Shown: positions 63,168-64,000 of the stretch, piece after piece | Position numbering within the stretch: position 1 is the stretch's first letter | Layout: every line of letters begins with the position of its first letter | Assembly (NCBI GenBank): GCA_017502305.1 | Contig: JAFVVG010000026.1 | Coordinates: forward strand, 1-64,000 | Direction: 5' to 3' | Length of the DNA: 64,000 nt | Source: Clostridia bacterium | GTDB taxonomy: Bacteria > Bacillota > Clostridia > Christensenellales > Aristaeellaceae | Notes under the pieces: model-generated | What the model was told of the DNA's origin: nothing | The model's input: the letters and a program-made list of their open reading frames with translations, nothing else | Databases searched by the model: none | Made by a program: the position numbers and the translations under genes

Positions 63168-63203
63168 AAAAAACGCTGAAACCTTAAAGATTTCAGCGTT
63201 TTT
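63168..63203 (-). terminator. Terminator of the truncated tRNA-Arg gene
   Basis: AAAAACGCTGAAA (63169-63181) and TTTCAGCGTTTTT (63191-63203) form a 13-base stem followed on the minus strand by T-rich sequence. It lies four bases after the tRNA 3' end. The stretch 63036-63167 holds only a possible weak esterase promoter. Confidence 0.85.
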
Positions 63204-63207
63204 CACG

Positions 63208-63249
63208 CGAGCCCGGCAGGACTCGAACCTGCGACCTTTTGATTCGCAG
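63208..63249 (-). pseudogene. 3' half of a tRNA-Arg gene, likely attachment-site remnant
   Basis: The minus strand reads from the anticodon loop (CTGCGAA), through the 3' anticodon stem TCAAA, variable loop AGGTC, and T-arm GCAGG-TTCGAGT-CCTGC, to the acceptor strand CGGGCTC and discriminator G. The 5' half is absent: the bases upstream do not pair with TCAAA or with the acceptor strand. The sequence resembles tRNA-Arg of the ACG type. Integrases of mobile elements commonly use this 3' half of tRNA genes, so it is probably attL or attR. Confidence 0.65.
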
Positions 63250-63468
63250 ACCATCCCTGACCAACATTTTTTACCAATTCGATCTCATGTCCAGCTGCTT
63301 GCTATGGTCGCTTCAAGGTGAACCATGAGGCTACATTCCCCTTACTGTTTCTCTGCACGTCATTTGCCATCTAAATGACCTCCTTTTGCTTTTGTTGCAG
63401 TTGCCAGACCGCTTCATTATCTTAGCAAAAGGAGTTTTTTGCGTCTACTCATCGGTTAACCTTCTTTG

Positions 63469-63491
63469 AACCACTGGCCTAGCCAGTGGTT
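63469..63491. repeat. Perfect inverted repeat near the right edge
   Basis: AACCACTGGC (63469-63478) and GCCAGTGGTT (63482-63491) form a ten-base stem with a CTA loop. T residues follow on the plus strand, so it may be a terminator for plus-strand transcription or part of the mobile element. The 63250-63468 stretch is lower in GC and shows no gene. Confidence 0.55.
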
Positions 63492-63501
63492 TTCAGTATA
63501 C

Positions 63502-63530
63502 AAAAAGGAACCGGCATCAACGCCGGTTCC
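63502..63530 (-). terminator. Terminator after the leucine-rich-repeat gene
   Basis: GGAACCGGC (63507-63515) pairs with GCCGGTTCC (63522-63530), followed on the minus strand by TTTTTGTAT. Confidence 0.9.
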
Positions 63531-63547
63531 CTTGCGTGTTTATTGAA

Positions 63548-64000
63548 TTAGATATACGGAATCCCGTTACGCACCGCATATTCAACAATTTGGGAAACGT
63601 TATAGGCTAGGATCACCAGATACGAGCTGCCATCAAAAGCGTCATCGGCGATATCCTTGTTACTAATGTCAAACCACACCTGAACCAGCGATTCGCAATC
63701 CTTGAATGCCCGGGGACCAATGGTGTCGATACCGCACAGATCGGCATAAGTAAATGCCGTACCCATGAAGGCTTCCTCACCAATTTCTTCAAGCTTCGAA
63801 GGCAGTTTCAGCTGAGCTTTTTCCACCACCTTAACCTCACACAGATCATACGCGCCGTTGGCAAGGAAGACACCTGCTAATGTTGTACCCGCCTTGTCGC
63901 TGGTTTTTACGCTCACTTTGCCGGTACTCAGGTTATCCGGCACCTCAAAGGTAACCATCTCCGCATCGTTCGCAATCATCAGGATCGGGCCGAACTTGCT
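63548..64000 (-). CDS. BspA-like leucine-rich-repeat surface protein, C-terminal part
   Basis: The frame is open to the window edge, so only the last 150 or so residues are visible. They include LPSKLEEIGEEAFMGTAFTYADLCGIDTIGPRAFKDCESLVQVWF, the LRR_5 (BspA/TpLRR) repeat pattern. They end with a short domain closing NGIPYI, common at the ends of these proteins. Such proteins are often surface-exposed or secreted adhesins. Base composition is less GC-rich than in the rest of the window, and the gene lies beyond the truncated tRNA. Confidence 0.75.
   Translation of the reverse strand, partial: SKFGPILMIANDAEMVTFEVPDNLSTGKVSVKTSDKAGTTLAGVFLANGAYDLCEVKVVEKAQLKLPSKLEEIGEEAFMGTAFTYADLCGIDTIGPRAFKDCESLVQVWFDISNKDIADDAFDGSSYLVILAYNVSQIVEYAVRNGIPYI

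Follow-up and report, generated by a model that had tools for sequence, protein, structure and literature searches.

Genomic islands that target tRNA genes can be recognized by the published criterion of the Islander catalogue (PMC4383910), in which the anticodon-loop class combines an intact tDNA, a downstream 3' fragment in the same orientation, an adjoining integrase domain and a length of more than 2 kb. The locus described here shares all of these features and its signature matches that criterion. The sizes of the catalogued islands peak at 13.6 and 39.9 kb, whereas the present island measures 4.1 kb and its integrase is represented by a C-terminal fragment only. Two other known systems are found as pieces within it, namely IS30-family insertion sequences and the left end and tnpA leader of IS200 elements, known as Rfam family STnc490 and as the Salmonella 5' tnpA sRNA (PMC12594629). 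Structurally, the locus has everything that defines an anticodon-class tRNA-targeted island except a complete integrase, and it is an ordinary, degenerate example of the catalogued type which opens no new mechanism. We consider it very probable that this is a tRNA-Arg-targeted genomic island which was inserted by an integrase and has since decayed.

The window, a stretch of 64,000 bases, comprises bases 1-64000 of a 74,895-base contig from a 2.24-Mb draft genome (64 contigs, 87% complete), and the analysis was extended rightward past its end. The initial annotation had taken 63168-64000 as the edge of an integrated element marked by a half tRNA-Arg with its terminator. Both features were found in this span, the first three bases of which (63168-63170) are not part of the terminator hairpin. 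Listed from the left by contig position, the features are:

63171-63204, minus strand: original host-side tRNA-Arg terminator adjoining the half tRNA (intrinsic hairpin, -20.4 kcal/mol, z -7.1)
63205-63246, minus strand: attR, the displaced 3' half of tRNA-Arg (42 bases), an exact direct repeat of 67376-67417
63247-63350, no strand assigned: island end (attR arm), 104 bases with no informative relatives
63351-63506, minus strand: orphan IS200-type 5' end with left-end hairpin, tnpA leader and about the first six codons (RF01405 STnc490 and DNA identity)
63548-66271, minus strand: Ig-like/LRR_5 secreted surface protein of 907 aa (LRR_5, E=7.6e-8), the 3' part of which (63548-64000) lies in the window
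66418 to about 66904, plus strand: 5' part of an IS30 element (IS30 transposase, E=2e-19, below the model's cut-off)
About 66905-67189, plus strand: C-terminal fragment of a tyrosine integrase (PF00589, E=5e-12)
67185-67283: four TGTGACA repeats in two pairs, 12 bp apart, between integrase and tRNA
67335-67375, minus strand: island-supplied terminator (-30.2 kcal/mol, z -9.0)
67376-67417, minus strand: attL core within tRNA-Arg, identical to 63205-63246
67378-67452, minus strand: intact tRNA-Arg(ACG), oriented as the half tRNA and sharing the 42-base core

At the left end, the 3' half of tRNA-Arg and its terminator were observed to be intact and the 5' half replaced, as first described. The 42-base core extends from the anticodon loop to three bases beyond the end of the gene, and ARAGORN called no whole tRNA at this position. 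The Rfam tRNA model scored 22.1 bits here, short of its threshold of 29, since the 5' half is unpaired. The contig contains the exact 42-mer at two places, one of them inside the window. A whole-genome search with the 70 bases of the half tRNA and terminator returned a single further strong match (45 bases, 98%, 67376-67420). The initial annotation had pointed to the right for a full tRNA-Arg whose end would be a direct repeat of these 42 bases, and this is where the intact gene was found. A whole tRNA is therefore present at one end and a 3' fragment at the other, in the same orientation and displaced to the correct (downstream) side. The two copies are 4.17 kb apart and enclose an island of about 4.1-4.2 kb. 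The reported drop in base composition beyond the half tRNA was also confirmed, with a GC content of 0.482 between the copies versus 0.599 in the 10 kb to the left (the flanks are at about 60%), where the lowest value of any 4.1-kb stretch is not below 0.568. A half tRNA in raw sequence can thus flag an integrated island even when the integrase is nearly gone.

The terminators at the two ends were found to differ. The host-side terminator at the half tRNA is of the type GTGAAAAACGCTGAAATC, and nearly the same terminator was observed 3' of the uninterrupted tRNA-Arg in three congeners (G012, G005 and G015). The intact tRNA is followed by GTAGAAGAAACCG..., unlike the terminator at the half tRNA, and therefore the element replaced the terminator as well as the 3' part of the gene.

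In the order of events that we infer, the attP of a mobile element with a phage-type tyrosine integrase would have recombined with tRNA-Arg(ACG); this attP would have carried the 3' part of tRNA-Arg, beginning in the anticodon loop and reaching slightly beyond the gene. The element's copy would have rebuilt the whole tRNA and supplied its new terminator, while the original 3' half, displaced together with its terminator, would have come to lie at the far end (attR). Strand exchange normally requires identity in the anticodon loop, and an A/G mismatch between the copies at position 34 of this loop speaks against the proposed insertion; the half tRNA would read GCG, one base off the intact ACG gene. 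Drift in the dead half or a difference already present in attP would explain this mismatch. IS200-type and IS30-type elements would later have entered the island, and deletions would have stripped it of most of what it held. The integrase would thereby have lost at least its N-terminal two thirds, and with them the first catalytic arginine. What would remain is the 4.1-kb island with the surface-protein gene, its own integrase no longer able to excise it.

The uninterrupted site was found in the same three congeners, in which a single tRNA-Arg behind pheA leads straight into the host-side type of terminator. In G015, the tRNA-Arg and terminator are followed by the same esterase gene as in this genome. 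When the flanks of the island were joined by script, the resulting sequence matched the uninterrupted tRNA-Arg and terminator of G012, G005 and G015 at 95-96% identity over about 167 bp. Together with the direct repeat and the integrase domain, this uninterrupted site upholds the initial reading of the half tRNA as the footprint of a tRNA-targeting integrase at its non-reconstituted end.

Tandem pairs of tRNA-Arg(ACG) were observed at or near this site in four congeners (G002, G017, G011 and G004; loci L044, L045, L047 and L048). From such pairs one could propose that two tandem tRNA-Arg genes were ancestral and that the second lost its 5' half through an insertion or a deletion between the two, without any integrase event. 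This is very unlikely, as the tRNA is single in the nearest relatives that have the site (G012, G005, G015 and G008), and a terminator-free spacer of about 48 bp separates the genes of the tandem pairs, whose acceptor stems also differ. Furthermore, the repeat begins in the anticodon loop, which is the standard crossover for integrases, and an integrase fragment lies at the expected place.

A tyrosine recombinase had been anticipated next to the full tRNA, and a PF00589 fragment is indeed located there, but it is truncated and fused to IS30 sequence. The fragment consists of the 90 C-terminal residues, its match to PF00589 covers positions 90-169 of 172, and, as read from the sequence, it retains the H-x-x-R motif along with the second histidine and the tyrosine. 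The region of the box I arginine, which is present in an intact 425-aa relative from G004, is missing. Recombination therefore cannot be deduced from a complete enzyme, which counts against the integrase-mediated insertion that we favour. The fragment points at the intact tRNA, with about 190 bp between its 3' end and that of the tRNA. Among the integrase genes of relatives, the nearest share 45-50% identity with the fragment and remoter ones 33-43%. Intact ones located near tRNA genes (33-46% identity) adjoin tRNA-Arg(CCG) in G004, G008 and G026, tRNA-Met in G025 and tRNA-Pro in G017, and they are oriented as here toward the tRNA 3' end at a distance of about 170-220 bp. The four TGTGACA repeats between fragment and tRNA are probable arm sites of the integrase.

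A single ORF of 250 aa (L011 3637-4389, equal to contig 66437-67189) was observed to run from the N-terminal part of the IS30 transposase into the C-terminal part of the integrase without a stop. Copies in G009 and G006 match the left end of this IS30 element at 93-94% identity. The island piece shares with IS30-family insertion sequences the left end and the N-terminal HTH of the transposase, but unlike them it is without the 3' half and its ORF continues into the integrase fragment. The truncation of the integrase and its fusion to IS30, the 4.1-kb size and the island-supplied terminator on the intact tRNA had not been foreseen.

The LRR surface-protein gene that had been placed beyond the half tRNA is the 907-aa Ig-like/LRR_5 gene listed above. 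Its homologues in five congeners are 34-45% identical, and within the stretches fetched around them we found no tRNA and no match to two integrase queries; the cargo is therefore not tied to this type of island. The only evident genes in the ORF list of the 4.1 kb are the LRR protein and the IS30/integrase ORF. Domain searches of these genes gave no capsid, packaging or conjugation families, which are the genes that would place the island among prophages, satellite phages or ICEs. No intact copy of the island was found, which counts against the favoured reading, and the chimeric ORF matched only distant integrases in the named genomes. Integrases of satellite phages are among the matches of the integrase fragment in phage records. 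Phage, satellite and conjugative element are all possible parents of the island, the remnant being compatible with each.

The island has probably lost its mobility. Both att cores and the putative arm sites are intact, the genome holds other integrase-like genes (C30 and C43) and satellite-phage integrases are among the matches of the fragment, so that one might see in the island a satellite which is still mobilisable by an integrase supplied in trans. We give this little credence. Integrases recognise specific arm and core sites, and such specificity argues against mobilisation by the C30 and C43 genes, which share only 27-38% identity with the fragment across 52-56 residues; truncated IS pieces also lie at both ends of the island. 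Least probable of all is a false joining of two contigs through shared tRNA sequence, which the fragmented assembly (64 contigs, 87% complete, no reads) might suggest but which fits poorly with a half-tRNA junction inside the contig and not at its edge, with cargo and an integrase fragment between flanks that are neighbours in G015, and with different terminators at the two ends.

This site seems to have received more than one element. The second type of terminator (GTAGAAGAAACCG type) was also found 3' of tRNA-Arg in G008, and in G012 and G005 part of it follows the first type at a distance of about 100 bp. In these two congeners (L037 1214-1420 and L038 11429-11230), TTCGGCA-like direct repeats and a half terminator occur behind tRNA-Arg, and these resemble a scar left there by a further element. 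Given the two terminator types and the relic of the second type in G012 and G005, the site has probably been used repeatedly, whatever the order in time, and the exact ancestral state is therefore uncertain, which weighs against the favoured reading. The pheA/tRNA-Arg region is a variable site in the genus, apparently occupied and vacated by elements of different origin. G008 has an 11-kb stretch at this site, which was considered as a copy of the island and rejected, as it has neither an evident integrase nor a half tRNA.

Between the half tRNA and the IS200-type remnant, bases 63247-63350 gave no extended match in 60 relatives except one of 29 bases. The remnant itself scored 54.8 bits with Rfam RF01405 STnc490 at 63383-63491 (gathering threshold 56, E=1e-9) and is 82-93% identical at the DNA level to IS copies in G018 and G015. 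No match to the Y1 transposase (PF01797), the tnpA by which IS200/IS605 elements are assigned, was found in the genome. As in STnc490 and in the Salmonella 5' tnpA sRNA (PMC12594629), the left-end hairpin and leader are present, and they are recognisable over the whole model. The island copy differs in falling just under the Rfam threshold and in having lost tnpA after about six codons. There is only a slight chance that the leader has been kept for a new function as a small RNA, or the IS30/integrase ORF as a DNA-binding regulator. In three cases (63383-63506 here, and L082 and L083 in the relatives G018 and G015), IS200-type left ends were observed to follow immediately on terminator-like hairpins that have T-rich tails. 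In this genus and family, IS200-type elements may insert preferentially at terminators.
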